From assembly GCA_017444015.1 (NCBI GenBank), contig JAFSXN010000015.1:1-51889 (forward strand): a stretch of DNA of 51,889 nucleotides, written 5' to 3'. The notes below the pieces were generated by a model. That model made no database searches and was not told the origin of the DNA. It saw only the letters and a program-made list of their open reading frames with translations. Source of the stretch: Lachnospiraceae bacterium (GTDB lineage Bacteria; Bacillota; Clostridia; Lachnospirales; Lachnospiraceae). Positions 3,175 to 23,996 of the stretch are shown piece after piece (position 1 is the first letter of the stretch; every line of letters starts with the position of its first letter). Both the position numbers and the translations under genes were made by a program.

Positions 3175-3420
3175 TAACTATTCAGAACCAAGCGGATTTA
3201 TTTATACTGGTTAACGATTTTCGTTGCCGATCAACCGGACTCGCAAACGCAATTCCAGTACGTTTACTTTATCACAAACGGCAATTAATTGCGTTCGCGA
3301 GTATAAAAATGAGTGCCGAATGCTCGCATTCAGAACATCATTTTTAAATAAATCCATTTGGCGAGAAGCCAACAACGAGGAAAAACAAAGGTTTTTCCGA
3401 GTCCTGGTTCTGAATAGTTA
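3175..3420. repeat. 246-bp nested palindromic element (contains a 103-bp copy)
   Basis: This fills most of the 315-bp gap between the ATPase gene and the ABC transporter. The outer arms TAACTATTCAGAACCA (3175-3190) and TGGTTCTGAATAGTTA (3405-3420) are perfect 16-bp inverted repeats. Inside them GGATTTATTTA (3194-3204) pairs with TAAATAAATCC (3345-3355). Between these lie the 103-bp element (3203-3305) and a GAATGC/GCATTC hairpin (3318-3331). Right of the second stem are TTGGC/GCCAA (3358-3372) and GGAAAAAC/GTTTTTCC (3379-3398) hairpins. The whole could fold as a many-armed cruciform or RNA. No credible gene is present; an apparent reading frame at 3224-3433 is repeat sequence. Confidence 0.8.
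3203..3305 (+). repeat. 103-bp branched palindromic repeat, copy A
   Basis: Begins TATACTGG and ends AGTATA (terminal inverted repeats). The inner long stem is ACTCGCAAACGCAATT (from 3239) with AATTGCGTTCGCGAGT (ending 3303). Small hairpins AACGA/TCGTT and GTTG/CAAC lie left of it, and CGTTT/AAACG sits in its loop. Same length and internal order as copies B, C and D. Confidence 0.8.
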
Positions 3421-3451
3421 CCATAAAATATAAAACGCAAGGAGGTATATT

Positions 3452-4246
3452 ATGAAAAAATTAACTGTTTTGCTGCTTTCCGTTTTTACGGCGACGGCTT
3501 TGTTCGGCTGCGCAGGGGCAGCGGCGCCTCAGGGCAGCGCTTCTTCGGAGACTGCTTCGGAAACGGAGACTTCAGGCGATAACGCAGGCGGAACGCTTGT
3601 TATGGCGACCAACGCGGAATTTCCGCCCTATGAGTTCTATGACGGGGATGCCATCGTAGGGATCGACGTAGAGATCATGCAGGCTATCGCTGAGGATCTA
3701 GGGATGACGCTTCAGATCGAGGATATGGCCTTTGATTCCGTTATCACCTCCGTCCAGACTGGGAAAGCGGATATTGGCGCGGCAGGACTTACGGTAACCG
3801 AGGACAGACTGGCGAACGTCAATTTCTCTGACGCTTACGCGGAGAGCGCTCAGATGATCATCGTCAAGGAGGGCAGCGAGGTAGCCAGTCCCGATGATCT
3901 GGTCGGAAAGACGGTCGGTGTTCAGCTTGGTACGACCGGCGATATCTATGCCGAGGATATCGAGGACGCTACGGTAGAGCGCTACAACAAGGGAATGGAA
4001 GCTGTCCAGGCGCTTTCCCAGGGCAAGATCGACGCGGTCATCATCGACAGAGAGCCGGCCAAGGTCTTTGTTTCCCAGAACGAGGGAATCAAGATGCTGG
4101 ATGAGGAGTTTACGGTAGAGGAATACGCGATCGCCATCGCCAAAGATAACGAAGAGCTTTTAAACAAGGTCAACGATTCGATCGCTTCCTTAAAGAGCTC
4201 CGGAAAGCTGCAGGAGATCGCTGAAAAATATATCAATGCGGAATAA
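3452..4246 (+). CDS. Amino acid ABC transporter substrate-binding lipoprotein
   Basis: Captures a polar amino acid (family range: glutamine, cystine, histidine or arginine) outside the membrane for the adjoining ABC importer. The 264-residue protein has a lipoprotein signal with lipobox LFGC (Cys20), a Ser/Thr/Glu-rich linker to about residue 48, and a bilobed family 3 binding domain. That domain starts LVMATNAEFPPYEFYD and includes GIDVEIMQAIAEDL, the ligand-contacting region AAGLTVTEDR, and the hinge GVQLGTTGD. The start follows AAGGAGG by 6 nt. The permease follows 9 nt downstream and the ATPase overlaps the permease, giving a complete three-gene transporter. The substrate cannot be told from sequence. 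Confidence 0.92.
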   Translation: MKKLTVLLLSVFTATALFGCAGAAAPQGSASSETASETETSGDNAGGTLVMATNAEFPPYEFYDGDAIVGIDVEIMQAIAEDLGMTLQIEDMAFDSVITSVQTGKADIGAAGLTVTEDRLANVNFSDAYAESAQMIIVKEGSEVASPDDLVGKTVGVQLGTTGDIYAEDIEDATVERYNKGMEAVQALSQGKIDAVIIDREPAKVFVSQNEGIKMLDEEFTVEEYAIAIAKDNEELLNKVNDSIASLKSSGKLQEIAEKYINAE

Positions 4247-4255
4247 GGATCAGAG

Positions 4256-4945
4256 ATGAATTCTTTTGCAGAATCCTTTTATCAGAATTTTATAGAAAAG
4301 GACAGATACAAGTATATCCTGGACGGCGTGAAGAATACGCTTATCATGACCTTTCTCGCCGTCCTGATCGGTATACTGATCGGCTTTATCATAGCGGTGA
4401 TCCGCTCAACCTACGATAATACGAGGAGACTGAAGCTGCTTAACGCTCTGGCGCAGATCTATCTTACCGTGATCCGTGGCACGCCGGTGGTTTTGCAGCT
4501 TCTGATCACATATTTTGTCATATTCGCCTCGGTGAATATCTCCAAGATGTTTGTCGCTGTCATCGCCTTCGGGATCAACTCGGGGGCTTATGTCGCTGAG
4601 ATCATACGAAGCGGCATCAACTCCGTGGATATCGGGCAGTTTGAAGCCGGGCGGTCGTTAGGCTTTTCCTATAATCAGACGATGGTGAATTTCATTCTGC
4701 CCCAGGCGCTGAAAAATGTCTTGCCGGCCCTGGGCAATGAGTTTATCGTGCTTTTAAAGGAAACGTCGGTAGCCGGGTATATCGCCATGCAGGATCTGAC
4801 CAAGGGAGCTGATATCATTCGAAGTCAGACTTATTCTGCCTTTATGCCCCTTTTAATGGCGGCTGCGATCTATCTGATCTTAGTCATTATCTTCGATTAT
4901 CTGGTAAAGCGGCTGGAGAGGAGGTTGAGAAACAGTGACCACTAA
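4256..4945 (+). CDS. Amino acid ABC transporter permease
   Basis: Membrane subunit of the polar amino acid importer, 229 residues, His/Glu/Gln/Arg/opine family (HisM/GlnP type). It shows about five hydrophobic segments (roughly 25-47, 60-85, 90-112, 150-165 and 195-215). The cytoplasmic coupling loop is the EAA-like stretch [18 protein letters not shown] followed by [15 protein letters not shown], which docks onto the ATPase. The conserved [14 protein letters not shown] comes before segment 3. Only one permease gene is present, so it is expected to work as a homodimer. The last 11 nt overlap the start of the ATPase gene, indicating translational coupling. Confidence 0.93.
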
Positions 4946-5681
4946 GAATGAGACCCCTCTGATCCAGGTTTCCCATCTTCAGAAATCCTTTGAGGATCTG
5001 AAGGCTTTAAAGGATATTTCCGTTGATTTCTATCAGGGGGATGTGGCGTTTATCGTAGGTCCTTCCGGGTCCGGAAAAAGTACCTTTCTTCGCTGCCTGA
5101 ACCGTTTAGAGGAGCCGACCGGGGGTTCTATCCTCTTTGAAGGAACGGATATCTGCGCGAAGGACTGCGATATCGACAGGCACCGCCAGAAAATGGGTAT
5201 GGTCTTTCAGCAGTTCAATCTGTTCCCGCATCTGACCGTGATGCGGAATCTGACCATCGGGCCGATGAAGCTGCAGAACGTGTCCAAGGAGGAGGCGGAG
5301 AGCCGGGCGCAGGCTCTGCTTGAGCGGGTAGGCCTCGGGGACCGTGGCGATACCTATCCGAACAAGCTGTCTGGCGGGCAGAAGCAGAGGATCGCGATCT
5401 GCCGCTCCCTCTGTATGAATCCGGATGTCATGCTCTTTGACGAGCCGACCTCTGCCCTGGATCCGGAAATGGTGGGCGAGGTCTTAAATGTTATGCGTGA
5501 GCTTGCAAGAGACCATATGACGATGATCGTTGTGACACACGAAATGGGCTTTGCGAGAGAGGTTGCCAACCGGGTCCTGTTTATGGCGGACGGGGAGATC
5601 CTTGAGGAAAATACGCCGGAGGAGTTCTTCGGTGCGCCGAAGAATGAAAGACTTCAGGCATTTTTAGGGAGCGTTCTATGA
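4935..5681 (+). CDS. Amino acid ABC transporter ATP-binding protein
   Basis: Hydrolyses ATP to drive the amino acid importer, GlnQ/HisP type, 248 residues. All key motifs are intact: Walker [10 protein letters not shown] (42-50), Q-loop Gln92 in [11 protein letters not shown], signature LSGGQ (145-149), Walker B VMLFDE (165-170) with catalytic Glu170, D-loop SALD, and switch His202 in VVTHEMG. It starts at GTG, preceded by GGAGAGGAGG inside the permease end. The stop codon overlaps the ATG of topoisomerase III (ATGA), so topB is likely translated from the same message, an unusual operon partner. Confidence 0.94.
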
Positions 5682-7762
5682 GTGAGGCTGTTTCCAAAAC
5701 GGTCTTTATCGCCGAAAAGCCCAGCGTCGCGAAGCAGTTTGCGGAGGCGTTAAAGCTGAAAACAAAGAGCTACGACGGATATCTGGAATCGGAGAATACG
5801 ATCGTTACCTGGTGCGTCGGGCATCTTATCACCATGAGCTATCCCGATGCCTATGATAAAAAATATAAAAAATGGAGTTTTGCGACCCTGCCGTTTCTGC
5901 CGACAGATTATAAATATGAAGTGATCCCTTCGGCAAAGAAGCAGTACCAGATCGTCAAAAAGCTGTTAACGAGGCCGGACGTGGCGACGATCTACGTCTG
6001 TACCGACTCCGGACGGGAGGGCGAATATATCTACCGTCTGGTGGATCAGGAGGCCGGTGTCACCGGAAAAACAAAAAAACGGGTATGGATCGATTCCCAG
6101 ACGGAGGAGGAGATCCGGCGCGGGATCAAAGAAGCGAAGGACCTTTCGGAGTACGATGCTTTAGCGGATGCGGCGTATCTTCGGGCAAAGGAGGATTATC
6201 TGATGGGGATCAATTTCTCCCGCGCCCTGAGTCTGAAATACGGAGACGCGATCGCGGACTTTTTACATATGAAATTCGCTGTCGTTTCCGTAGGAAGGGT
6301 CATGACCTGTGTGCTGGGAATGGTGGTGAGAAGGGAACGGGAGATCCGGGAGTTTGTTAAGACGCCGTTCTACCGGCTGATCGCGGCAACGATCCTCTCC
6401 GGAGATGGGAACGATCCGGAGTCCCAGGGCAGCTTTCCCGCGGAATTTAAGGCGGTGGAGGGCTCCGCTTACTATCTGTCTCCAAAGCTCTATAAGGAAA
6501 ACGGCTTTAAGGAGCGGGAGGATGCAAAGAAGCTGATCGAGGAGCTGCTAAACCGCTCGCGGAAAAAGGCTGTCGTGGATTCCATCGAGCGGAAAAAGGA
6601 AAAGAAAAATCCGCCGCTCTTATATAATCTGGCGGAGCTTCAGAATCAGTGCAGCAAGCTGTTTAAGATCTCTCCCGAGGAAACCTTGCGGATCGTTCAG
6701 GAGCTGTATGAGAGGAAGTTAGTCACCTACCCCCGTACGGACGCGAGAGTGCTTTCGACGGCGATCGCAAAGGAGATCCAGAAAAATATCGGAGGGCTTA
6801 AGGCCTACCCGATCCTTTCAGAGACCGCCGAGGGAATACTTTCCACAGGGTCTTTTCAGGGTATCGCGAAAACCCGCTATGTAGACGATAAGAAGATCAC
6901 GGATCACTACGCGATCATCCCTACGGGGCAGGGACTGTCCGGGCTGTCAAAGCTGCCTGAGCTTTCGCAGAAGGTCTATGAGGTGATCGCAAGGCGGTTT
7001 CTTGGAATCTTTTTGGAGCCTGCCGAATATTTAAAAACAAGCGTTATTTTAAATATCGGCGGAGAGAAATTCTTTGCCAATTTCAAGCTGCTTGCAAAGG
7101 AAGGCTTCCTTTCCATATGGAATTATTCCTTTATAAAAAAGAAGGAAGATAATAAAGAAGAGGCCGCAAAGGACGAAAATAAGGAGCAGGAGGGTGAAGA
7201 AGCAGAGGAGATCTCCTGTGACGAAGGATTTCTTGAAAGGCTTAAGGCATTAAAGAAAGGAACTGTATTGCAGGTTTCTTCCATAGATATCAAGGAGGGA
7301 GAGACGACCCCGCCCAAGAGATATACCTCCGGTTCCATGATCCTTGCGATGGAAAACGCGGGGCAGCTCATTGAGGATGAGGAGCTCAGAGCTCAGATCA
7401 AGGGCAGCGGGATCGGAACCAGCGCTACGAGAGCGGGAATCCTGGAAAAGCTCTTTAAAAACGGCTATCTGAGGCTAAATCAAAAGACGCAGATGATAAC
7501 GCCGGAGCTTTTGGGGGAGATGATCTATGATATTGTGGCCGCCTCCATCAAGCCCATGCTCGATCCGAAGCTGACTGCCAGCTGGGAGAAGGGTCTGACC
7601 CAGGTGGCCGGGGGCGAGATCAGCGCTGACGTGTATATGGAGAAGCTGAATGATTATGTCGCAAGGCGGACGAACTCGGTACGGGCCCTGAATAATCAGG
7701 CGGGGCTTCGGAATATGTTTCAGAGGGCGGCATCAAATTACACGGAACAGCAAAAAAAATAA
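5678..7762 (+). CDS. topB: DNA topoisomerase III (type IA)
   Basis: Relaxes and decatenates DNA by single-strand passage. The 694-residue protein has an N-terminal Toprim domain ([13 protein letters not shown] with the catalytic Glu; [13 protein letters not shown] at 108-120 supplies the metal-binding acids in the TDxGREGE form seen in Gram-positive topoisomerase III). The active-site tyrosine is Tyr351 in [16 protein letters not shown] (206-210) and [13 protein letters not shown] near residue 575 are family motifs. A lysine/glutamate-rich insertion at roughly residues 485-515 is unusual. No C-terminal zinc finger is present. The start codon overlaps the stop of the ABC ATPase. The sequence looks chromosomal; nearby conjugation genes, which often accompany plasmid-borne TopB, are absent. 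Confidence 0.93.
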
Positions 7763-7793
7763 TATTCTATTAAAATAAGAAGGGGCAGGGAGT

Positions 7794-8465
7794 ATGGAAC
7801 AGTGCAGAATCGAAAATCTGTTTGATCTGAAGGAAACGATCACAAGCGAACTATTTGAAGGGCATACCTATCCATGGGAGGTCCTTCCTCTGATCGGAGA
7901 TTTTATAAGACGTCTCGGCGAGACCTTATCGCAGGAAGAATATGAAAAGCGGGGAGAGGATATCTGGGTCGCAAGATCCGCGGTGATCTTTGATACGGCT
8001 TATATCGCGGGACCCGCCATTATCGGGAAAGAGGCTCAGGTCAGGCAGGGCGCCTTTATCCGGGGAAATGCCATCGTCGGAGAGGGCACCGTCGTAGGAA
8101 ATTCTACGGAGCTGAAAAATGCGATCCTGTTCAATAAGGTCCAGGTCCCGCATTTCAACTATATCGGGGATTCAATCCTTGGATACAGAGCCCATACCGG
8201 TGCCGGGGTGATCGCCTCCAATGTCAAGCTCGACAAAAAGCCGGTGGTCGTAAAGGACGGGAAGGAGCAGATCGATACCGGCCTGAAAAAGTTCGGAGCT
8301 ATGCTCGGAGATTTCGCGGAGATCGGCTGTAATTCCGTCTTAAATCCCGGGACCGTTGTCGGACGGAATTCCATCGTGTATACATTAAGCAGTGTCCGGG
8401 GCGTGATCCCTGCGGACTCGATCTACAAAAACGCCGCGGAAATCCGGGAAAGAGAGCAGCGGTAA
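7794..8465 (+). CDS. Left-handed beta-helix acyltransferase-like protein
   Basis: A 223-residue cytosolic protein related to the C-terminal half of GlmU. Residues 1-55 are helical, and residues about 60-200 carry imperfect hexapeptide repeats such as IAGPAIIGKEA, IRGNAIVGEG and VVGNST, which build a left-handed beta-helix. GYRAHTGAGV and the loop up to KFGAMLGDFAEIGCNSVLNPGT match the acetyl-CoA/acceptor region of GlmU-like acetyltransferases. The N-terminal uridylyltransferase domain is missing, so the enzyme would be an acyltransferase only; Clostridial relatives are commonly labelled UDP-GlcNAc pyrophosphorylase-related. The start has GGGGCAGGGAG upstream, 31 nt after topB. Substrate unknown. 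Confidence 0.8.
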   Translation: MEQCRIENLFDLKETITSELFEGHTYPWEVLPLIGDFIRRLGETLSQEEYEKRGEDIWVARSAVIFDTAYIAGPAIIGKEAQVRQGAFIRGNAIVGEGTVVGNSTELKNAILFNKVQVPHFNYIGDSILGYRAHTGAGVIASNVKLDKKPVVVKDGKEQIDTGLKKFGAMLGDFAEIGCNSVLNPGTVVGRNSIVYTLSSVRGVIPADSIYKNAAEIREREQR

Positions 8466-8577
8466 AGCTGAAAGCAGGCCTTTTCGCGCTTCGCCTTAAG
8501 CAATCAGGGGCAGTTTGAATTTGTAACATTCTGTTAAAAAAAAATTAAAATTTTGGATACATAAAAAAACAAAAAAA

Positions 8578-8620
8578 TTGTAACAAATTTATAAAGAGAT
8601 GGTATAATACTTTGTATAAT
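8578..8620 (+). promoter_or_regulatory. Putative promoter of the 19-residue-repeat protein gene
   Basis: In an AT-rich stretch, TTGTAA (8578-8583) is followed after 19 bp by TATAAT (8603-8608). A second TATAAT occurs at 8615-8620. The spacing is longer than ideal, so the exact hexamers are uncertain, but transcription from here would give an untranslated leader of nearly 190 nt. Confidence 0.5.
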
Positions 8621-8631
8621 ATATCTAATGA

Positions 8632-8763
8632 GCACCTGTCTTTCAAGGTGCCATCAGATAATGAGTAAATCGCATCTTTTCAGCGATTTACGAGTCTATG
8701 TTAATTTTTTGATAATATACAACTGTTCAGTATCTTCTTAATGGTTGGGGGGAGAGCAGTTGT
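8632..8763 (+). promoter_or_regulatory. Structured 5' leader with three stem-loops
   Basis: This lies inside the 335-bp gap before the repeat-protein gene, which otherwise holds only AT-rich sequence and the putative promoter. GCACCT/AGGTGC (8632-8651) and TAAATCGC/GCGATTTA (8666-8690) are perfect stems. ACAACTG (8719-8725) pairs with CAGTTGT (8757-8763) and encloses a G-rich GGTTGGGGGGAGAG tract. No T-run follows any stem, so these are not standard terminators. No known riboswitch consensus was recognised. It may control stability or translation of the following gene. Confidence 0.5.
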
Positions 8764-8800
8764 TATATTATAAATTTTTAAGAAAAGGAAGGTATTATTT

Positions 8801-10579
8801 ATGGCAGACGAAAACAAGTCACCAAACAACTCGGGCGCGAAAAAAAATCTCCCGAATCTTCTTGACCACAAGGACATGACTGATTATGAGCGTTCTTCCT
8901 ATGAGGAACAGCTTTTAAACAGTCTGAGCAATGATGATGCCAAAATAATGGCTTCACTCCTTATGGACATCCGTGACAAGAACGACAAGGCTTTGAAGAA
9001 TGCCCAGAAGCAGTCGAAGTTCTCTCTTGGAACCTCCATCTTCTGCGCGCTGATCGTTCTGGTTCTGGCGATCGCGGTATTCTCGATCGTTCCGAGGATC
9101 ACGAGCCTTGTAGCGGACGTTCAGGGTGTAGTAGCACAGGTCAACGGTCTGATCGGCGACGTAAGCGGCCAGATCGACGGCATTGTTGGTACTCTGAATG
9201 ACACCATCGGTGAAGTTACCGGACAGCTCGACAACATCATGGGCCAGGTAGACGGAATCGTAGGTCAGGCAGACGGTATTGTAGCACAGGTGAATACGGT
9301 GGTCGGCGAGGCTGAGACTGTTATCAAGAACGCTCAGGATATCACGAATGATATCGCGGCGGCTGATATCGCAGGCATCGCAAACAACGTAGAATCCATT
9401 ACGAAGCAGGTTTCCGAAGCGAACGTAACAGAGCTTGTTGACAATACAAGCGCTTTGATCGATCAGATCTCCGCAGCGGATATCCAGGGCGTAGTAAACA
9501 ACGTGAACGGCCTTGTAGACAATGCTAACGCAACCATCGCTATGGTGAACGGCCTTGGCCTTGACAAGTTAGTTGCTAACGTAAACAGCACGCTCGACTA
9601 TGTAATGAACCTCGGACTTGAGGGACTCGTAGCACAGGCGACCGACGTACTTGCTAACGTTAACAGCCAGGTAATGGGTCTGGTAGCTCAGGTTAACGAC
9701 GTTCTCGCGGATGTAGACGCTGTTCTGAATCAGGTACTGAACGCGAAGCTCGATGAGCTTGTAAACGCTGTTAATACCATCAGCCAGCAGATCGCGAACG
9801 CGAAGATCGACGAGCTGATCAATTCGATCAACGCTCTGGTTGGCCAGATCGCATCCTCTGATCTCACAGGTGTTGTAAACAATACCAGCAGCCTGGTAGG
9901 TCAGCTGACAACGCTGGATTACAATTCGGTATTCGCAAGCGTTGACGGAATCGCTAAGGATGTTAATGCTGTATCGAGCGAAGTAGCGGCTATGAACCTG
10001 AAGGGCATTACGGATGACGTAAATACCATTACGAATCAGGTAGCAAGCAGCGACATCGACAGACTGATCGGCAACGCGGTAGCTGTTACGAACGAGGTAG
10101 CAGACATTGATATCACAGGCATCGTTGACGGTGTAAACGGAACCGTTGATACAGTCAGCGGAATCGCAACTGAGGTAGCGGCCGTAGATATCGAAGGTAT
10201 CGCGAAGGATGTTAATACGTTAGTAGACAACGGAAATGAAGCGGTTGAGACACTTGTTACTACCGGAACCGAAGCGTTAGACGCTGTTGTTGAAGCCGGT
10301 ACGAGCGCAGTAAACGATCTCTCCGTCTCCGGTGACGCAGCTGTTAAGTCTCTGACCGAGACAGGAAGCGAGAGCATTGAAGGTCTTGTGAAGTCCAGCA
10401 CTTCGGCATTGTCCGAGGCAATCTCTCAGATCGTTGAGAGCTTTGTTGAGACTATGGACAACATCAACAAGTCCGTTGACTCAGCAGTAGAATCTGCTGT
10501 ATCCAACGTACAGAACGTAGATGTAAACGCTTCTCTTGAGCAGTCGTTAGACGCGCTGTTAAACGCGTTAGGACAGTAA
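8801..10579 (+). CDS. Single-pass membrane protein with 19-residue helical repeats
   Basis: Not recognised as a named family. The 592-residue protein has a charged N-terminal segment (1-73), one transmembrane helix (about 76-98) and roughly 490 residues of Val/Asn/Ala/Asp-rich helical repeat predicted outside the cell. The repeat is a xDIxGIVNNVNxLVxQV-like unit. Its anchor hydrophobic residue recurs at 190, 209, 228, 254, 273, 317, 336, 355, 374, 400, 419, 438 and 464, so spacings are 19, or 26 (19+7), with one of 44. The outer part has one cysteine at most (Cys82 is in the membrane helix) and almost no aromatics. There is no LPXTG anchor. Codon use (GTA, GTT, AAC, GAC rich) differs from neighbours and suggests high expression. 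AAGGAAGG precedes the ATG. A long coiled or solenoid surface filament or spacer is likely; function unknown. Confidence 0.85.
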   Translation: MADENKSPNNSGAKKNLPNLLDHKDMTDYERSSYEEQLLNSLSNDDAKIMASLLMDIRDKNDKALKNAQKQSKFSLGTSIFCALIVLVLAIAVFSIVPRITSLVADVQGVVAQVNGLIGDVSGQIDGIVGTLNDTIGEVTGQLDNIMGQVDGIVGQADGIVAQVNTVVGEAETVIKNAQDITNDIAAADIAGIANNVESITKQVSEANVTELVDNTSALIDQISAADIQGVVNNVNGLVDNANATIAMVNGLGLDKLVANVNSTLDYVMNLGLEGLVAQATDVLANVNSQVMGLVAQVNDVLADVDAVLNQVLNAKLDELVNAVNTISQQIANAKIDELINSINALVGQIASSDLTGVVNNTSSLVGQLTTLDYNSVFASVDGIAKDVNAVSSEVAAMNLKGITDDVNTITNQVASSDIDRLIGNAVAVTNEVADIDITGIVDGVNGTVDTVSGIATEVAAVDIEGIAKDVNTLVDNGNEAVETLVTTGTEALDAVVEAGTSAVNDLSVSGDAAVKSLTETGSESIEGLVKSSTSALSEAISQIVESFVETMDNINKSVDSAVESAVSNVQNVDVNASLEQSLDALLNALGQ

Positions 10580-10636
10580 AACTTCAAAAAAATGTTTGGT
10601 GACACAACAAAAGAATCAAAGTGAGGATAGTTGTTT

Positions 10637-12253: not shown

Positions 12254-12303
12254 GAATTACCATGTAATGGATTTCAGATAGATGTAAGGATAACAGACTG
12301 CGA

Positions 12304-12798
12304 ATGAAAAGGATTTATTCTGTTTTAGTAGAAAATCGCTCCGGCGTACTTGCCAAGGTAGCCGGGCTTTTTGCGAGAAGATGCTTTAATATTGACTCTC
12401 TTGCGGTGGGGGAGACCTTTGACCGGGATGTCAGCTGTATTACCATCGTTTCCTCGGGAGATAAGGGGACGCTTGAGCAGATCGAAAAGCAGCTGAACAA
12501 GAAGATCGACGTCATAAAGATCAAGACTTTCTCGGAGGCGGAGAGTTTAAGCCGCGAGCTGCTGCTTGTCAAGGTGAAATACAACAAGCATAACCGCAGG
12601 GATCTGTTCGAGATCTGTAATATTCTCGGCACAAGGATCGTCGATACCTCAAAGTCGTTAATGACGATCCAGATGTGCGATACGCCGGAGCAGACCGAGA
12701 GCTTGTTACAGATGTTAGCGGCTGCTTCGATCAGTGTCGTCGAAGTGGCAAGGACAGGAACCTTGGCGTTACAGAAATGTATTATGAGTGAGAAATAG
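12304..12798 (+). CDS. ilvN: Acetolactate synthase small (regulatory) subunit, first copy
   Basis: The 164-residue ACT-domain subunit that raises activity of the catalytic subunit and confers valine feedback inhibition. The N-terminal ACT domain starts RIYSVLVENRSGVLAKVAGLFARRCFNIDSL and ends at a VIKIKTFSEAES-like boundary near residue 77. A second ferredoxin-like domain follows, ending VVEVARTGTLAL, the conserved IlvN/IlvH finish. The gene begins 50 nt after ilvB with AAGGAT upstream. It differs clearly from the second small subunit at 12993 (different residues in the binding loop: AVGETFDRD versus TAGSTSNPG), so the two are old paralogues, not a recent duplication. Confidence 0.88.
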   Translation: MKRIYSVLVENRSGVLAKVAGLFARRCFNIDSLAVGETFDRDVSCITIVSSGDKGTLEQIEKQLNKKIDVIKIKTFSEAESLSRELLLVKVKYNKHNRRDLFEICNILGTRIVDTSKSLMTIQMCDTPEQTESLLQMLAAASISVVEVARTGTLALQKCIMSEK

Positions 12799-12824
12799 GC
12801 TCTTTCCCGGCACTGGACAAAGGT

Positions 12825-12927
12825 TATACTCGCGAACGCAATTAATTGCCGTTTCTGATAACGCAAACGTACTGAAATTGCGTTTGCGAGTCCGATTAAT
12901 CGGCACCGAAAAGCGTTAACCAGTATA
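12825..12927 (-). repeat. 103-bp branched palindromic repeat, copy B
   Basis: Same element as copy A in the opposite orientation, starting TATACTCGCGAACGCAATT and ending GTTAACCAGTATA. It lies between the two acetolactate synthase small-subunit genes, so an ilv message crossing this point would carry the folded element. GGAC/GTCC and CCCGG/CCGGG in the flanks may extend the stem. Confidence 0.8.
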
Positions 12928-12992: not shown

Positions 12993-13511
12993 ATGCAGAA
13001 AAAAGCGTTTCAGTTATTGGTTGAAAATAATTCCGGTGTTTTAAGCCGAATCTCCGGGCTGTTCAGCAGGAGAGGCTACAATATCGAGAGCATTACGGCG
13101 GGCAGTACCTCCAATCCCGGGATCACAAGAATCACGATCGTCGCTACGGGGGAGCCGGATATTTTAGAGCAGATCGAGAAGCAGGTGGCAAAACTGGTAG
13201 ATGTACTTTCCATCGTAGAACTTCGGGGCGAGGAGTCGGTTTACAGAGAGCTTCTCATGATCAAGATCCGGGTACTGCCGGAGCAGAGAGCGGCTGTCGT
13301 AGCGCTGACCGAGACCGATGTTTTCCGGGCGAATATCATTGATGTCGGACCGGATTCCATGATCATCGAGCTGACCGGGACGCAGAATAAGGTGGATGAT
13401 TTCATCGCTCTCGTGGACTGCTATGAGATCCTTGAGATCGCGCGGACCGGGATCGCGGGACTGACCAGAGGAACCGATAAGATTGTCCGGGTGGAATCGA
13501 AGCAGTTTTAA
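12993..13511 (+). CDS. ilvH: Acetolactate synthase small (regulatory) subunit, second copy
   Basis: A 172-residue ACT-domain regulatory subunit, closer to the mainstream IlvN/IlvH sequence: QLLVENNSGVLSRISGLFSRRGYNIESITAG with the Asn/Gly-rich effector loop, then ITIVATGEPDILEQIEKQVAKLVDVLSI, and the C-terminal domain ending EILEIARTGIAGLTRG. AAGAGGAG precedes the start. It probably supplies the main valine-sensitive regulation of IlvB. The first small subunit may replace it under other conditions or form mixed complexes. The symbol is used for convenience; which copy is the true orthologue of ilvN or ilvH cannot be settled from sequence alone. ilvC follows after 98 nt that contain a CCCCCT/AGGAGGGG bulged hairpin. 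Confidence 0.9.
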   Translation: MQKKAFQLLVENNSGVLSRISGLFSRRGYNIESITAGSTSNPGITRITIVATGEPDILEQIEKQVAKLVDVLSIVELRGEESVYRELLMIKIRVLPEQRAAVVALTETDVFRANIIDVGPDSMIIELTGTQNKVDDFIALVDCYEILEIARTGIAGLTRGTDKIVRVESKQF

Positions 13512-13606: not shown

Positions 13607-14629
<1,023 letters not shown>

Positions 14630-14655
14630 GAAAATATTAAAGTATTTTTCCGAGT

Positions 14656-14694: not shown

Positions 14695-14776
14695 TAGAGA
14701 AGAAAATATTGAGCAGGTAATAGCAGGTTATTTTTTTTTAAGATTAATACGCTATGTAAAAGACTTCAAACTGGTG

Positions 14777-14782
14777 TATAAT
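14777..14782 (+). promoter_or_regulatory. Putative -10 box before the cytidylate-kinase-like gene
   Basis: GTGTATAAT contains a perfect TATAAT 60 nt before the ATG at 14842. No good -35 is seen 17 bp upstream (region TATGTA). A short GAATTCGTTTCC follows. Weak support. Confidence 0.35.
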
Positions 14783-14841
14783 TATCGTAAACGAGTGAAT
14801 TCGTTTCCTGTTTTCAAAAAATCAGAAAAGAAGGTTGAAGC

Positions 14842-15471: not shown

Positions 15472-15497
15472 AATAGAGGCTTAATAATCTGTAAAAC

Positions 15498-17932: not shown

Positions 17933-18032
17933 AAACCGCAGGTGGAAGAGCCGACAGACAACTATTCGCAAAAGACAGCTTTAACGAATAGATTTACATC
18001 CAGCTTCAGCTGATACGCATGCCTGCATATTT

Positions 18033-18070
18033 AATAGGGGAACCGGGCATTTTCTCCCGGTTCCCCTATT
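18033..18070. terminator. Strong bidirectional stem-loop terminator
   Basis: AATAGGGGAACCGGG (18033-18047) pairs perfectly over 15 bp with CCCGGTTCCCCTATT (18056-18070) around an 8-nt loop. It lies between the zinc-type lipoprotein gene (+) and rubrerythrin (-). The T-run is poor on both sides, but the stem is very stable. Confidence 0.75.
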
Positions 18071-18083
18071 ATACTCAAATACT

Positions 18084-18186
18084 TATACTGGTTAACGTTT
18101 TTCATTGCCGATCAATCGGACTCGCAAACGCAATTCCAGTACATTCGCTTTATCATAAGCGGCAACTAATTGCGTTCGCGAGTATA
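18084..18186 (+). repeat. 103-bp branched palindromic repeat, copy C
   Basis: TATACTGGTTAACG at the left, ACTCGCAAACGCAATT pairing with AATTGCGTTCGCGAGT at the right, ending AGTATA. Same orientation as copy A. It sits between convergent genes beside a terminator. Confidence 0.8.
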
Positions 18187-18243
18187 GCTTCGCGTTTGAT
18201 CCGATTAGATGAGCAGAAACAAAACGCAAACGTCAGAGCAATT

Positions 18244-18786
18244 TTATCCGAAATATCTCTTCAGAAGTCCGGCGAAGGCCTTGCCATGTCTTGCCTCGTC
18301 CCGGCCGATCTCATGGACAATATCATGGATCGCATCGAGATTCAATTCCTTTGCCTTTTTCGCCAGATCCGCACGTCCCTGCGTTGCGCCATATTCGGCA
18401 TCTGCCCGAAGCTCCAGATTCTTCTTTGTGGAATCCGTAAGGACTTCGCCCAGTAATTCCGCGAAGTGAGCGGCATGTTCAGCCTCTTCCCAGGCGGCCT
18501 TTTCATAGAAAGCGCCAACCTCAGGATAGCCTTCTCTGGTAGCTACACGAGCCATCGCCAGATACATCCCTACTTCGCAGCATTCGCCGTTAAACATTTC
18601 CCGCAGACCCTTTTTGATCTCTTCCGGAGCGTCGGAAGCCACTCCGAGTACGTGCTCAGCTGCCCAGACCTTTTCGCCCTCCTGCTTATTGAATTTCTCC
18701 GCAGGCGCGTTACAGGTAGGACAATTTGCAGGGGGCTCATCCCCCTCATGAACATAACCACATACAGAACATACCCATTTTGCCAT
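18244..18786 (-). CDS. rbr: Rubrerythrin (N-terminal rubredoxin, 'reverse' type)
   Basis: Peroxide-scavenging non-haem iron protein of anaerobes. Residues 1-33 form a rubredoxin-like FeS4 site (two CxxC pairs: CSVC and CPTC). Residues about 50-180 form a ferritin-like four-helix domain with diiron ligands in FNGECCEVGMYL, AAWEEAEHAAHF, AEYGATQGR and GRDEARHGKAF. The rubredoxin-first order is that of reverse rubrerythrins. 180 residues. AAGGAGA lies 7 nt before the ATG. An imperfect dyad at 18823-18854 upstream may be an operator. It reduces H2O2 with electrons from rubredoxin/NADH pathways, in the cytoplasm. Confidence 0.93.
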   Translation of the reverse strand: MAKWVCSVCGYVHEGDEPPANCPTCNAPAEKFNKQEGEKVWAAEHVLGVASDAPEEIKKGLREMFNGECCEVGMYLAMARVATREGYPEVGAFYEKAAWEEAEHAAHFAELLGEVLTDSTKKNLELRADAEYGATQGRADLAKKAKELNLDAIHDIVHEIGRDEARHGKAFAGLLKRYFG

Positions 18787-18822
18787 AGTTTAAATCTCCT
18801 TTATTAATTAGATCATAGCCTT

Positions 18823-18854
18823 ATAGTAAACGTTCATTTTTTTACGTTCACTAT
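18823..18854. promoter_or_regulatory. Imperfect dyad upstream of rubrerythrin
   Basis: ATAGTAAACGT (18823-18833) and ACGTTCACTAT (18844-18854) match in 10 of 11 positions around a T-rich 10-bp spacer. It lies 37-68 bp before the rubrerythrin start in the divergent region. It does not match the PerR box. It could be an operator or a leader hairpin. Confidence 0.4.
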
Positions 18855-18931
18855 ATGTTCGCTTCTGATAGGTGTATTTTACCTTATATCCGGCATATTA
18901 TAAAGCATTTTATGCTTTTTTTAGCTTTTGG

Positions 18932-18960
18932 TTGACATAATATTATTTTGAGGTTATGAT
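18932..18960 (+). promoter_or_regulatory. Promoter of the tyrosine recombinase gene
   Basis: TTGACA (18932-18937), 17 bp, TATGAT (18955-18960): a near-consensus sigma-A promoter 42 bp before the ATG at 19002. Confidence 0.7.
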
Positions 18961-19001
18961 TTATGTCAGGTAGTAATGTATGAATAATAAGGGGTTTTAT
19001 A

Positions 19002-20057
19002 ATGTCTGATACAAATCTTACCTACCACGACCAGGTCAACGTGGATAATACGCTGCGTTTACGGGAACTGATTCCTACGCTGCCCTCCTTTTGCAGAGAC
19101 TTCTTTCTCGGTATCAAGGATACGACCGCGACGAGAACCCGGGTGGCATATGCTTACGATCTTCGGATCTTCTTTGAATTCCTGCACGAAAACAATCCAG
19201 TCTGCCGAAAAATGGAAATTACGGATTTTCCTCTTAGTCTCCTGGAGGATCTGAAGGCGATCGATATCAACGAATATATGGACTATCTTTCCTATTATAT
19301 TAAGGATGGAGAAGTCGTAACGAATGATGAGCGGGGCAAGCAGAGAAAGCTGGCCTCCTTACGGAGCATGTATAATTATTTCTGCCAGACAGAACGGATC
19401 GAAAAAAATCCGGCAGCCCTCGTTTCCATGCCAAAGCTCCACAAGAAAGAAATCATCCGCCTGGATCCGGGGGAAGTCGCGACGCTTTTAGATAACGTGG
19501 AGGACGGTGAAAACCTTACGAAAAAACAGCTGGAATTCCATAAAAAGACCCGGGTCCGGGATCTTGCTCTTCTGACCCTCCTTCTCGGAACTGGGATCCG
19601 TGTCTCCGAATGTGTGGGGCTTGATCTTAAGAACGTCGACTTTCGAAACAACGGGATCCTCGTCAAGAGAAAGGGCGGATATGAAGCCGTCGTCTATTTT
19701 GGGGACGAGGTTGAAGAGGCATTACGGGATTATCTGGAGGAACGAAAGCATATCATTCCCGCGGAAGGACACGAAAACGCTCTCTTCCTCTCGCTGCAGA
19801 ATAAAAGAATATCGGTACGGGCCGTAGAAAAGCTGGTTAAAAAATACGCTCAGACCGTAACTACGCTGAAAAAAATTACTCCGCATAAGCTCAGAAGCAC
19901 CTATGGCACCAATCTTTACAGCGAAACCGGGGATATCTATCTCGTTGCGGATGTTCTGGGTCATAAGGACGTAAATACAACGAAGAAGCACTACGCCGCA
20001 CAGGACGAGAATCGACGCAGAATGGCAGCAAATATCGTAAAGCTGCGCGAAGCCTGA
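19002..20057 (+). CDS. Tyrosine recombinase (XerC/XerD-like)
   Basis: A 351-residue site-specific recombinase with an N-terminal SAM-like core-binding domain (about 25-135) and a C-terminal catalytic domain. The active-site set is complete: Arg200 in GTGIRVSE, the lysine hairpin LVKRKGGYE near 221-229, His295 and Arg298 in HKLRST, His321 in LGHKDV, and nucleophile Tyr331 in KKHYAA. It stands alone with its own promoter, next to the lexA region. There are no phage or transposon genes and no att-like flanking repeats nearby. A housekeeping Xer-type chromosome-dimer role or a phase-variation invertase is more likely than an integrase. A dif site was not identified. Confidence 0.88.
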   Translation: MSDTNLTYHDQVNVDNTLRLRELIPTLPSFCRDFFLGIKDTTATRTRVAYAYDLRIFFEFLHENNPVCRKMEITDFPLSLLEDLKAIDINEYMDYLSYYIKDGEVVTNDERGKQRKLASLRSMYNYFCQTERIEKNPAALVSMPKLHKKEIIRLDPGEVATLLDNVEDGENLTKKQLEFHKKTRVRDLALLTLLLGTGIRVSECVGLDLKNVDFRNNGILVKRKGGYEAVVYFGDEVEEALRDYLEERKHIIPAEGHENALFLSLQNKRISVRAVEKLVKKYAQTVTTLKKITPHKLRSTYGTNLYSETGDIYLVADVLGHKDVNTTKKHYAAQDENRRRMAANIVKLREA

Positions 20058-20119
20058 AGGGGGTATGCGCCGAAGCTGTCCCGAAAGCAGGACGCTCCGG
20101 CGCAGGGTGAAACAATTCG

Positions 20120-20611
20120 TCACTGACCGTTTTCGTTTACGTTGTCGTTTACGCTTACGTCTACGTTAACGTTCGCATCTGCGTTTCCGCTTGCGTTTTC
20201 GTCTACGCTCACGTCAATACTGACATCCGCGGTACAGTAACAGGGGATAATTATGTAATTACCCGGAACCAGCGCGGTATACGTCTGAAGGTGATTGATC
20301 CGGCATACTTCTTCCATATAAGCATCCGGGGAAGCATACTCCTCCATACCATATTTTTCCGCGACCGTTTCCAGAGTATCACCAAAGTAGATCATAACGC
20401 TTTTATAGCCTGTTTTATTTCCGCTCTCCATTTCCTTCGCACCGGAGGAAGCATATATCAGACGGGTACAGGTCAGAATTCCCGTCAATAAAACGATACC
20501 GAAAATAATCGAAGCCAAAAGAACCTTTTTTCCGGAAAAGTATTTCCGGTTTTTCCGATATCGTTCGATCAAGTTTATTACTCTTCTGCCCTGTCTGAAG
20601 CTCACTGTCAT
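20120..20611 (-). CDS. LysM-domain protein, YneA-like SOS division inhibitor candidate
   Basis: ATG 20611 is preferred (GGGGG 6 nt upstream) over a TTG at 20635, giving 163 residues. The basic N-terminus is followed by one membrane helix (about residues 28-48, VLLASIIFGIVLLTGILTC) and a LysM-like module. That module runs from SVMIYFGDTLETVAEKYG, through VCRINHL, to LVPGNYIIIPCY. The Asn/Asp/Val tail (about 130-163) is built of repeated VDVSVN-type units from repetitive DNA. In Bacillus, yneA encodes a small membrane LysM protein that blocks division during the SOS response and is divergent from lexA; the same arrangement is present here, with LexA boxes in the promoter. The function by position and architecture is likely but not proven. 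Confidence 0.75.
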   Translation of the reverse strand: MTVSFRQGRRVINLIERYRKNRKYFSGKKVLLASIIFGIVLLTGILTCTRLIYASSGAKEMESGNKTGYKSVMIYFGDTLETVAEKYGMEEYASPDAYMEEVCRINHLQTYTALVPGNYIIIPCYCTADVSIDVSVDENASGNADANVNVDVSVNDNVNENGQ

Positions 20612-20664
20612 ATCTACCCCCATCGCTTTCATCAATAGCGGAAAGCCTGAAAAAATATCAAAGG

Positions 20665-20737
20665 CGAACGTCTGTTCTGATAATGATTATACGAACATCT
20701 GTTCTGGTTGTCAACCGTTTTATCGAACATTTTTTCG
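20665..20737. promoter_or_regulatory. Three LexA (SOS) boxes and LysM-gene promoter
   Basis: Box 1 CGAACGTCTGTTCT (20665-20678) and box 2 CGAACATCTGTTCT (20692-20705) fit the Gram-positive CGAAC-N4-GTTC consensus. Box 3 CGAACATTTTTTCG (20724-20737) is weaker. On the minus strand TTGACA (20714-20709), 17 bp, TATAAT (20691-20686) forms a perfect promoter for the LysM gene, and box 2 fills its spacer exactly. Box 3 is nearer lexA. Confidence 0.85.
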
Positions 20738-20770
20738 ATTTTTCTTTTCTTTTAAAAAAAACTATGTTAT

Positions 20771-20776
20771 TATAAT
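20771..20776 (+). promoter_or_regulatory. Putative lexA -10 box
   Basis: TATAAT in TTATTATAATGAAAG, downstream of LexA box 3. A poor -35 lies about 17 bp upstream in a T-rich run. Confidence 0.45.
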
Positions 20777-20783
20777 GAAAGCG

Positions 20784-20852
20784 CGGAAGGATTTTACAGG
20801 AAGCGAATGAAAATATATTCGTTTCCTATATAAGAAATCCGATCTGCCTTCA
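20784..20852 (+). promoter_or_regulatory. Long hairpin in the lexA leader
   Basis: Nested complementarity: GGAAGGATTTT with AGAAATCC...CCTTC outside, and AGGAAGCGAAT with ATTCGTTTCCT inside. It precedes the ribosome binding site (GGGGGT) of lexA. It could tune LexA translation. Confidence 0.4.
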
Positions 20853-20894
20853 TTTATTAATTCACATATTCATTCAGAAAAACGGGGGTATATC

Positions 20895-21515
20895 ATGGGA
20901 AAACGAGACGAAAGCATTACCTCGAAGCAGCAGGAGGTATTGAATTATATTAAGGAAGAAATTCTGAAGCGCGGGTATCCGCCTGCGGTGCGGGAGATCT
21001 GCGAGGCCGTCGGTCTGAAGTCGACCTCGAGTGTCCATGCTCATCTGGAGAGCCTGGAAAAGAAGGGTTTTATACGTCGTGATCCTACGAAGCCGCGCGC
21101 GATCGAGATCGTTGACGACGGATTTCAGACGATCCGGCAGGAAATGGCCTCTATCCCGATCGTCGGTACGGTTGCCGCCGGTCAGCCGATCCTTGCCGAG
21201 CAGAATATCTCCGGCTATTTCCCGCTGCCGGTCGATATGGTCCCGAACGCGGAAACCTTTGTTTTAAAGGTCAAGGGAGATTCGATGATCAATATCGGAA
21301 TATACGACGGCGATCAGATTTTTGTAGAATGTGTAAAGTCCGCCAGAAACGGCGATGTTGTCGTAGCGCTGATCGACGATTCGGCAACGGTCAAAACCTT
21401 CTATGCGGAGAACGGCCATTACCGCCTCCAGCCGGAGAATGACAATATGGCTCCGATCATTGTCGATGAAGTGCGTATTCTCGGAAAAGTCTTCGGTGTA
21501 TTCCGAAGAATGTAG
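20895..21515 (+). CDS. lexA: LexA repressor
   Basis: The SOS repressor, cleaved on RecA activation. 206 residues. The N-terminal winged helix (about 1-70) has recognition-helix sequence [19 protein letters not shown]. The C-terminal S24 peptidase domain has the Ala95-Gly96 cleavage site in GTVAAGQP, catalytic Ser130 in KGDSM and Lys167 in SATVKTF. It is divergent from the LysM gene with three LexA boxes between them, so it is autoregulated and controls the LysM gene. Confidence 0.96.
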
Positions 21516-21568
21516 AACAGGGTTGTCTGCGGGAGCCTTCAAAAGACTTCTTTTATCATATAGGAACC

Positions 21569-21684
21569 GAATTTATTTATACTTGTTAACGCAATTAACT
21601 GCAGTTTTGTATTATATAGAACCGTACGTTCACTCGTTATATATTCAATTTATCGGCAACTATTTGCGTTAATGAGTAAATTCG
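21569..21684. repeat. Diverged relative of the 103-bp repeat, copy E
   Basis: The outer CGAATTTA (21569-21576) pairs with TAAATTCG (21677-21684). The left end TATACTTGTTAACGCAATTAACTGC and right end CGGCAACTATTTGCGTTAATGAGT keep the order of the 103-bp element, but the long stem is eroded. It lies between the 3' ends of lexA and rsfS. Confidence 0.6.
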
Positions 21685-21685
21685 T

Positions 21686-22057
21686 TTACGAGATACTGTC
21701 TGCTTTCGTCCGAAGATCCTCGGGCGAGAGCTTTACTGCATCCCCCCAGATCCGTTCCAGATCATAAAAAGCTCTGGATTCCCGGTCGAAGATATGGATG
21801 ACGATATCCTGGTAATCCAGCAGGACCCAGCCGGAAGCATTCGTACCCTCGATGCTTTTGGCATGGATTTTATTCTGCGATAGCTTCTGTTCGAGCTCAT
21901 TCATCATAGCTCCGATCTGGTTTTTACTCAAACCTGTAGCAATGACAAAATAATCCGCCATAACGGAAATCTTCTGTATATCTAAAATCGAGATATCCTC
22001 TGCCTTTTTGTCCTCCAGGGCTTTTATAATGATTTGCAGCTGATCACGTATTTCCAT
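21686..22057 (-). CDS. rsfS: Ribosomal silencing factor RsfS
   Basis: A 123-residue nucleotidyltransferase-fold protein that binds L14 and blocks subunit joining under starvation. The family signature is clear: KAEDISILDIQKISVMADYFVIATG, then KSIEGTNASGWVLLDYQDIVIHIF, and FYDLERIWGDA. It follows yqeK by 36 nt on the same strand, the usual neighbour order. The start is supported by GGAAAGAG upstream. Confidence 0.94.
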   Translation of the reverse strand: MEIRDQLQIIIKALEDKKAEDISILDIQKISVMADYFVIATGLSKNQIGAMMNELEQKLSQNKIHAKSIEGTNASGWVLLDYQDIVIHIFDRESRAFYDLERIWGDAVKLSPEDLRTKADSIS

Positions 22058-22093
22058 AAACTCTTTCCTTTCAAAACGTTACTGCCGGCTCCT

Positions 22094-22711
22094 TTATATG
22101 CGGGGAGCCTCTTCTGTATCCAAAGCACTATAATATTCGTAGGTTTTCTCCGTCATCTCATCCAACGGCTGATCGGTCGTCTCAAGATATTCTAACGTAC
22201 GTTTCAGTATAAACACAAGTCCTTTATCCAGATTCTCAAACGACAGCTTTCTTATATAAGGAAGCATTTCTGTGTGGATCCGATAGGGCTCGATATAATC
22301 CGCGATAAAAATGATCTTGTCAAGCGTACTCATAGCGGGTTTTCCGGTTGTATGGCAGCGGATCGCGGACAGGACCTCCGGATCCTTTATCCCGTATCGA
22401 TGCTCCGCCAGATAAGCCCCGTATTTCGCATGCAGAAGCGAGGGGTTTTGCTCTTCGGTCAGCGATATCTCGATCCCCTTTTTCTTGCACTTTTCAAGCA
22501 GCTCTCTGTCCTTATAGCATTTTGCGCAATCGTGAAGCATTCCGGCTGTCAAAGCCTGATACAGAGAAATGTCATTGACCATAGCCAAAGCCGCTGCTGT
22601 CTGCGCGACGGAAACCGTATGACGGAACCTGGATTCCTTTAAAGAGCTCCTCATTTTCTCCTCTAAATCCCGGAGCTTTTCAAGCTCTTCTTTACATAAT
22701 ATCTCACTCAT
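22094..22711 (-). CDS. yqeK: YqeK, HD-domain Ap4A hydrolase
   Basis: A 205-residue HD-domain protein. Members hydrolyse diadenosine tetraphosphate symmetrically to ADP. Metal ligands: His31 in RFRHTVSV, His60-Asp61 in GMLHDCAK, and the later His in IRCHTTGKPAMSTLDKIIFIADYIEP, which also holds the conserved Asp. In most Firmicutes yqeK follows nadD directly; here nadD is absent and the upstream neighbour is a divergent secreted protein gene. It is probably co-transcribed with rsfS. Confidence 0.9.
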   Translation of the reverse strand: MSEILCKEELEKLRDLEEKMRSSLKESRFRHTVSVAQTAAALAMVNDISLYQALTAGMLHDCAKCYKDRELLEKCKKKGIEISLTEEQNPSLLHAKYGAYLAEHRYGIKDPEVLSAIRCHTTGKPAMSTLDKIIFIADYIEPYRIHTEMLPYIRKLSFENLDKGLVFILKRTLEYLETTDQPLDEMTEKTYEYYSALDTEEAPRI

Positions 22712-22768
22712 AGCAATAGGATTATATCGTTTTTTTATGAATTTGTCATGGAAATTTAATAATTCTAC

Positions 22769-22797
22769 TTGATTTACATAAAATTGTTTTATATAAT
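22769..22797 (+). promoter_or_regulatory. Promoter of the InlB-type secreted protein gene
   Basis: TTGATT (22769-22774), 17 bp, TATAAT (22792-22797). A perfect AACCATTT/AAATGGTT hairpin (22824-22844) follows in the leader, about 70 nt before the chosen ATG. Confidence 0.65.
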
Positions 22798-22913
22798 CAA
22801 ATATGTTCCCTCTATTTTCGGAAAACCATTTGTAAAAAATGGTTCACCTGTTTGGGGCAACGCTTTTATATGAAAAGATTAAGCACTCATTTACAACTTC
22901 GGAGGACAATCCT

Positions 22914-23876
22914 ATGATCAAAAAAATTCTGATGACTCTTGCTGCTGCGGCCTGCGCCTGTTTTTTAGCAGTCGTTCCCGTCAAGGCAGCAAATGTAACC
23001 GTAACCTTCTTTACGCCCTACAGCGTAGTTCCTGTGACCGTACCTCAGGGAACGGATCTGACCTATAAGGGACCTACGGATGTCAATGTACCGGGCTATG
23101 CCTTTATCGGCTGGAGCGTTCCGCTTGCCAATGTGCAGACGGATCTTGCGGCGATCGCGCTCTATGCGGATATCGGAACCGAATCGCAGATGGTTGCGGC
23201 CTATAACGCGCTGATTAACGCTCCTACCGGGATCTTAAGCTATACGACCGTAAATAAGGATACCATTCCGTCAGCGACCCAGAATATTAAGACGACACCT
23301 ACGCCGGTTTCAAACATCACTACGCTGACAGCGGATCAGACCTTCGTTATGAATCCGGTAGGGACTCCCGGAAAGACCTGTGTCGTAAAGTGGTATAACG
23401 GGTCTACCGGTGAGCTTTTAAAGACAGATATCGTACCCTTCGGCTCCTCTCTTCCGCAGCCGGAAACGCCCTGTATTCCCGGTCTGGAATTTGTCGGCTG
23501 GGACGGCTCATGGACAAATATCACCTCGGATCGCAGCATAACCGCCTGCTTCTATAAGACCAGAAAGCTCATCTTCAAGGACAGAAAAGGAAACGTTCTC
23601 GGAGATAAGACCATCCGTGTCACCGACAGTATCGAATCCGCGGCAGAGAATTTCAACAAGATCGACCTGGATTATAAGGTGGATCACTGGCAGATCGAAT
23701 ATTCGAGTGACGAGCTGACCGTAACTCTGACTGCTCTAGGTAATGACGATGGCGATTATTTAGAGCATGAATGCGAGGACTGCGACGGCGACTGCGGGAA
23801 CGACCCGGATGACTGCGACTGCAAATCCGACTGCCGCTGCCATAGCTGGGACAAGTATTACGGCATTGAATACTGA
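22914..23876 (+). CDS. Secreted InlB-repeat-type protein with Cys/Asp-rich tail
   Basis: ATG 22914 is chosen because GGAGGA lies upstream and a signal peptide follows (residues 1-25, MIKKILMTLAAAACACFLAV, cleavage near VKA-AN); this gives 320 residues. Two Listeria-Bacteroides/InlB B-type beta modules are visible. The first is about 27-65, ending YAFIGWS; the second is about 155-205, with CVVKWYNG and FVGWDGSW. A third beta-rich part follows. The last ~40 residues are acidic and hold seven cysteines (HECEDCDGDC, DCDCKSDCRC), suggesting metal binding or disulphide crosslinking. There is no LPXTG or membrane anchor, so it is probably released or held by the cysteine tail. It sits where nadD is expected. 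Function unknown. Confidence 0.78.
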   Translation: MIKKILMTLAAAACACFLAVVPVKAANVTVTFFTPYSVVPVTVPQGTDLTYKGPTDVNVPGYAFIGWSVPLANVQTDLAAIALYADIGTESQMVAAYNALINAPTGILSYTTVNKDTIPSATQNIKTTPTPVSNITTLTADQTFVMNPVGTPGKTCVVKWYNGSTGELLKTDIVPFGSSLPQPETPCIPGLEFVGWDGSWTNITSDRSITACFYKTRKLIFKDRKGNVLGDKTIRVTDSIESAAENFNKIDLDYKVDHWQIEYSSDELTVTLTALGNDDGDYLEHECEDCDGDCGNDPDDCDCKSDCRCHSWDKYYGIEY

Positions 23877-23893
23877 TAAAAAGCTCTTATTGA

Positions 23894-23996
23894 TATACTC
23901 GCGAACGCAATTAATTGCCGTTTTTGGTAAAGTAAACGTACTGGAATTGCGTTTGCGAGTCCGGTTGATCGGCAACGAAAATCGTTAACCAGTATA
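23894..23996 (-). repeat. 103-bp branched palindromic repeat, copy D
   Basis: Starts TATACTCGCGAACGCAATT, ends GTTAACCAGTATA; orientation as copy B. It sits between the convergent secreted-protein gene and yhbY, just before a terminator. Confidence 0.8.

Follow-up and report, generated by a model that had tools for sequence, protein, structure and literature searches.

A 103-bp palindromic repeat family in a gut Lachnospiraceae genome, probably a young non-autonomous element of MITE type

The window analysed here is a stretch of 51,889 nucleotides (positions 1 to 51,889 of contig JAFSXN010000015.1, assembly GCA_017444015.1) from a Lachnospiraceae bacterium, and the subject is a 103-bp palindromic repeat that is present in the window in four copies. 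That the repeat is a non-autonomous element is well supported, because many copies are identical, paralogous empty sites exist, reading frames are restored by the removal of 101 bp, and the element was not found in the relatives searched. It is probably a young element resembling the miniature inverted-repeat transposable elements (MITEs), with an IS630-like enzyme as the likeliest mobiliser. The first-pass annotation of the window had proposed either a non-autonomous element or a structured RNA or processing signal: copies, empty sites and frames bear out the former, and gene context, orientation and stem variation speak against the latter. In this family, small mobile DNA can be seen to have multiplied in a recent burst within an uncultured bacterium of the gut, and identical copies and paralogous empty sites resolve insertion to the base. 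At least one gene (for an OppB-like permease) is broken by the element, which thus shapes the host genome, and the one-sided target and missing partner make the mobilising enzyme directly testable.

Copy number and distribution

The assembly that holds the window comprises 3.77 Mb in 201 contigs (94.12% complete, 5.54% contamination). Searched in this assembly with up to 3 mismatches, a core of 29 bases from the element was found at 165 places (76 + 89); the reversed 29-base pattern, used as a control under the same conditions, gave 0 matches, which rules out chance. The four copies of the window are thus a small part of the family, and the refuting condition set in the first-pass annotation, that no others be present in the genome, does not hold. 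The covariance-model search of host and relatives that the first-pass annotation had recommended was run, and gave at least 150 matches in the host genome and none in 40 relatives (below).

From stretches around the copies, 178 distinct places were gathered, of which 147 were full-length by blast query and 154 near-full-length (103 bp in 147, 110 bp in 5 and 104 bp in 2); the 24 partial or degenerate places were excluded from flank, context and frame counts. Among the 147 full-length places, groups of identical copies had 29, 26, 19, 13, 10, 6 and 5 members. The copies are shorter than 200 bp, interspersed and near-identical, as MITEs are. The family is the product of a recent burst, presumably from several recently active source sequences.

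A covariance-model search (E 1e-4, stricter Infernal settings) of 40 other genomes, 24 from the genus and 16 from the order, gave no match. The first 20 bases of the left end, with 1 mismatch at most, occurred 179 times in the host genome and in none of 391 further genomes from the order. In named genomes the exact 20-mer was found in at least 5 stretches of at least 3 metagenome-assembled genomes (MAGs); among the matches listed were Lachnospiraceae MAG RUI380, a Eubacteriales MAG and a Lachnospiraceae MAG from red deer. In the red-deer MAG 15 diverged copies matched the model, 12 of which measure 102-103 bp in model coordinates; they share the left end and its inverted repetition in the interior, and their right end reads CGTTAATGAGTATA. 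The other two genomes with the 20-mer (G427 and G428) gave no covariance-model match; one stretch from these two nonetheless holds a 103-bp TATACT...AGTATA segment. Judged by these relatives, the host is presumably a Lachnospirales-like bacterium of the gut. Viral contigs (exact 20-mer), plasmids and phages gave no match to the element.

Insertion unit and empty sites

The first-pass annotation had also asked for empty sites. Paralogous pairs of filled and empty sites were found in three kinds, listed below. In each the filled site is longer by precisely 101 bp, a TA and 99 further bp:

Kind 1: AAACGAATTTAT-TA-AATTCGTTT
Kind 2: AAACGAATTAAA-TA-AATTCGTTT
Kind 3: AAACGAATTTATT-TA-ATTCGTTT

All empty sites used here were paralogous or deduced from a reading frame, and by both the paralogous pairs and the frame test the extra TA of filled sites may be either a target duplicate or a part of the element.

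When 101 bp were removed in silico, the junction was spanned by reading frames 600 nt or longer at 13 of 140 sites, compared with 4, 7, 5 and 6 sites after control removals of 99, 100, 102 and 103 bp, respectively. Given this background of 4-7 sites, perhaps 6-9 of the 13 restored frames are real interruptions. One is the gene for an OppB-like permease, whose frame is rejoined by the 101-bp removal; the rejoined protein was aligned with E. coli OppB (PDB 8z21_A) over residues 1-303 (E 3.6e-75), free of gaps at the junction.

Fourteen of the 154 copies lie within palindromes of a second repeat family (cgtAAACGAATT...AATTCGTTTacg) and 4 more within a CTCAA(A/T)TCC palindrome (18/154 together). 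Empty members of the same palindrome, in three variants, equal the filled ones minus 101 bp. Hairpin tips were considered as a general target and rejected: over 153 testable sites, palindromicity was 6.78 compared with a shuffled mean of 6.54. Sites with a score of at least 10 numbered 11, against 2.1 expected.

The target is one-sided. The right flank reads TA-AAT: its third base is T in 132/154 copies, compared with 57/154 for the mirrored left flank, and AAT itself is found in 83/154 on the right and 6/154 on the mirrored left (p 2e-24). By our own reading, the third base was also T in 9 of the 12 red-deer copies whose right end could be read. The dinucleotide at the right end was TA in 148, AA in 3, TG in 2 and TT in 1 of the 154 copies; at the left end it was TA in 153 and CA in 1.

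Gene context

Genes for the context counts were simple open reading frame (ORF) calls made for this analysis, and sites near the ends of contigs or stretches were set aside (17 in the gene-context test, 14 in the stop-to-stop test). Copies were inside genes in 15 of 137 cases, compared with 1017 of 1500 random points, and inside stop-to-stop frames in 30 of 140 cases, compared with 770 of 1141 random TA dinucleotides. The intergenic copies were divided into 76 tandem, 27 convergent and 19 divergent positions, as were random intergenic points (312, 97 and 72, respectively; p = 0.86). Beside tandem genes, 40 copies had the orientation of the genes and 36 the opposite one, and the neighbouring gene ends were 130 3' ends and 114 5' ends. 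The copies avoid genes, without favouring gene ends. The placement of all four window copies behind the 3' end of a plus-strand gene, on which the first-pass annotation had remarked, is correct for the window, though copies 3 and 4 lie in convergent gaps (znuA/rubrerythrin, and an unnamed gene/yhbY-obg); it does not extend to the family, which has no 3'-end preference genome-wide. Chance sampling can put four similar hairpins at the ends of genes within a single window.

Copies in the window and structure of the element

The sequence of the window confirmed four 103-bp copies bounded by TATACT...AGTATA, two in each orientation, which were aligned without gaps at a mean column identity of 95%. 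The features are as follows:

3203..3305, minus strand: element copy 1 (103 bp), running left to right on the minus strand
12825..12927, plus strand: element copy 2 (103 bp), one of 29 identical places genome-wide
18084..18186, minus strand: element copy 3 (103 bp), belonging to a subfamily that has 10 identical members, lying between znuA (plus) and the rubrerythrin gene (minus)
23894..23996, plus strand: element copy 4 (103 bp)
21578..21680, plus strand: diverged fifth relative, 103 bp when counted to GTAAA
12825..12839, plus strand: left terminal inverted repeat of copy 2, its outer TA being a target duplicate or part of the element
12913..12927, minus strand: right terminal inverted repeat of copy 2
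12828..12843, plus strand: outer arm of the 16-bp stem of copy 2
12876..12891, plus strand: inner arm of the 16-bp stem of copy 2, which repeats the left end in inverted form within the element
12850..12869, plus strand: small hairpin within the stem loop of copy 2
12892..12917, plus strand: two small hairpins in the right part of copy 2 (consensus fold)

The diverged relative has a left end of the same type (TATACT.G..AACGCAATTAA) and the right end GCGTTAATGAGTAAA. Copy 2 stands between adjacent genes for acetolactate synthase small subunits (12304-12798 and 12993-13511). Elsewhere in the window, three 33-bp tandem repeats are present at 28818-28918.

Folding reproduced the internal order given in the first-pass annotation: the 16-bp stem pairs element columns 4-19 with 52-67, the inner CGTTT/AAACG hairpin pairs columns 26-30 with 41-45, and two further small hairpins follow toward the opposite end of the element. 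The lowest-energy fold of copy 2 differs from this one, the two ends of the element pairing together. Folding z-scores were -3.7 to -4.5 on both strands, which fold equally well, as expected of an inverted repeat in DNA. The terminal inverted repeats are imperfect, with 12 of 15 bases matching in copy 2.

Stem differences between copies had been described as tolerant of G-T pairing and taken as a mark of selection on an RNA or cruciform. The remark comes down to a single G-T pair at columns 10/61, which is fixed (41 of the 43 distinct 103-mers have it) and is not a difference between copies; among these 43 sequences and the 16 stem pairs, no two-sided compensatory change that keeps a standard pair was found. 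Variation among distinct copies was 0.020 in stem columns and 0.090 in loop columns. Private mutations in young copies were not depleted in the stem, which received 4 of 17 in copies with up to 2 differences (5.3 expected, p = 0.61) and 4 of 23 in copies with up to 4 differences (7.1 expected, p 0.18). A cruder tally (4 of 45 changes in the stem) resembles avoidance, but counts subfamily differences as mutations. We read this as a stem conserved among active source copies, followed by neutral drift after insertion.

Search for a mobilising enzyme

Two transposase families, DDE_3/IS630 and Y1 (PF01797), were searched genome-wide. The DDE_3 search of the host genome gave one gene, assigned to IS630 by NCBIfam, with an ORF score of 119.9 bits (above the curated cut-off) and a second ORF at 76.1 bits (below it):

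L061:1356-2556: single IS630, with the ends TATAGTAAACGAATTAA on both sides, at the end of an Exo_endo_phos ORF

The earlier statement that no transposase is seen thus holds for the window genes looked at and fails for the genome. The element and this IS630 have TA-bounded TATA(C/G)T...AACG ends in common, and with TATA held fixed only 1% and 0.45% of shuffles aligned as well as the two real ends, with a 3-base gap. An IS630 with TATACTCGCGAACG/CGTTAACCAGTATA ends was not found in the host genome, where the DDE_3 search gave one IS630, with ends that are similar without being the same. The whole IS630 used as a DNA query matched itself and, over short lengths, its end-like palindromes. Among 37 genomes of the genus, the IS630 protein was present in 1, the host genome. 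Separately, the IS630 end resembles AAACGAATT palindromes of the second repeat family. The Y1 search gave 0 matches in the host genome, with 5 of 14 control genomes positive.

Mechanism and alternative explanations

In the mechanism that we favour, an enzyme of the IS630 (Tc1/mariner-like) kind would mobilise the element, perhaps supplied by a sister IS630 element lost from the assembly, and the hairpins would serve the movement of active copies and not the host. The 103-mer may be a fusion, in which a left-end palindrome would have been joined to a right-end hairpin; a free 70-bp form exists. This form, at L024:1167-1236, is a palindrome with perfect ends that corresponds to the left half of the 103-mer only. 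A 45-bp palindrome of the right-end type is found as an arm of the second repeat family (L075:9034, L103:111).

Several observations weigh against movement by an IS630-like enzyme. The assembly (94% complete, 201 contigs) yielded no autonomous element whose ends match; the reading frame of the resident IS630 is split across two overlapping ORFs, and its ends are about 3 bases shorter than those of the element and differ internally. The one IS630 of the red-deer MAG has other ends, and G427 and G428, which hold the 20-base end, gave no IS630 match and no R1 match. A single search of the genus with the oppB locus gave no orthologous empty site covering the junction (matches in 2 other genomes, of 116 and 296 bases at 76% and 67%, lay off it). 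The one-sided preference for TAAAT at the right end is unexpected, because equal ends and a symmetric IS630 enzyme would not orient the element. Among 133 young copies, three combine TA on the left with AA on the right, which is unexpected for a TA duplication (0.19 such copies expected at one site; P(>=3) 0.0009 from the private mutation rate, post hoc). Finally, two near-identical red-deer copies (L178 and L179) have TTTT and CCTG in place of the left TATA, with the right end intact.

The last three observations are what keeps alive a single-strand, one-ended model (IS200/IS605-, PATE- or REPIN-like), which we consider rather unlikely. Here 101 nt (TATACT...AGTA) would move without duplication to a fixed right-side target TAAAT (ATTTA on the other strand), with the hairpins as recognition sites. 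The model is favoured by the excess of AAT at the right flank (83 against 6 of 154), by the young AA copies, by the diverged window relative, which ends in GTAAA too, and by hairpins close to both ends; it is disfavoured by the empty PF01797 search of the host and by the terminal inverted repeats (12/15 bases), and the left TA, constant in 153/154, is predicted equally by a TA target. A MITE moved by another DDE or other transposase, neither IS630 nor Y1, is unlikely: no matching autonomous copy was seen and the genome-wide searches covered two transposase families, but the TA-bounded ends in common with the resident IS630 point the other way. Similarly doubtful is a miniature element with terminal inverted repeats, resembling SMR-A, that would be inserted in a fixed orientation beside the one-sided TAAAT, without duplication and by another enzyme, in several gut Lachnospiraceae. 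Very improbable is a structured RNA, or an mRNA-processing or termination signal that the host maintains at the ends of genes. Strong folding (z around -4) and the lower variation of stem than loop columns agree with it, but both strands fold equally, the element was not found in 40 relatives, and the window gave no Rfam match at gathering score; gene context (130 3' and 114 5' flanking ends), orientation (40 and 36 beside tandem genes), the lack of any compensatory pair and the neutral private mutations (4/17 in the stem, 5.3 expected) are the grounds on which we reject it. Movement by an IS630-like enzyme is retained as the probable explanation.

Second repeat family

The second repeat family has the core TGCGCA-stem-TAAGGAA-hairpin-stem'-GCGCA, in which the stem sequence varies and the pairing is kept. 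Examples are as follows:

L116:1656-1710
L062:1838-1896
L091:1908-1965
L067:9038-9094
L014, near 1711-1857

It was not found in the window. Its model gave 34 matches in 87 loci (E 0.05), and 6 loci searched against Rfam gave no match. Two-sided changes were present at 9 of 14 pairs (16 rows), and covariation over 27 distinct rows was 0.513, compared with 0.172 after shuffling (0 of 500 shuffles as high), in an alignment fitted to the model. Judged from these sequences, this family does look structure-selected. Some copies come straight after terminator-like hairpins; in others the hairpin arms bear TATACT/AGTATA at their ends (146-150 bp). At L067:8710-9012 a match resembling a T-box leader was noted (76.2 bits, below the gathering score of 93).

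Comparison with known systems

Likenesses to described systems are given here as far as the accounts in the cited sources extend. A literature search turned up no Lachnospiraceae MITE of this kind, which is not proof that none is in print. Correia/NEMIS and ERIC are described as small TA-ended mobile repeats with terminal inverted repeats and hairpins (PMC2229807); they belong to other hosts and have other sequences, and were set apart by these descriptions, not by alignment of the families. PATEs and REPINs are reported to depend on Y1-type enzymes (PMC3119063, PMC3116915). Our element resembles PATE, IS200/IS605 and REPIN in its hairpins near both ends and its one-sided short target, as described in the same sources; unlike PATEs, which by these accounts have no inverted terminal repeats, it does have them, and its host gave no Y1 match. 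SMR-A of Haloquadratum walsbyi is described as about 110 bp long, with inverted terminal repeats, entering the palindromes of other repeats without target duplication (PMC3119063). The 18 of 154 copies within palindromes of another repeat family are reminiscent of this; the other 136, which lie elsewhere, are unlike the strong palindrome preference reported for SMR-A.

Of the kinds on record, RUP (Repeat Unit of Pneumococcus) comes closest, going by its published descriptions and not by a sequence comparison: 107 bp, about 110 copies, terminal inverted repeats like those of IS630-Spn1, a TA target and many hairpins, with movement ascribed to the IS630 enzyme in trans (PMC2229807, PMC3049150). 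As far as RUP is described there, the present case differs by lacking an IS630 whose ends match, and by a one-sided target preference. Many MITEs are stated to have no known partner, a matching autonomous element being expected but not obligatory (PMC2229807). We class the 103-bp element as a new MITE family with a candidate IS630-type mobiliser, not as a new sort of RNA signal.

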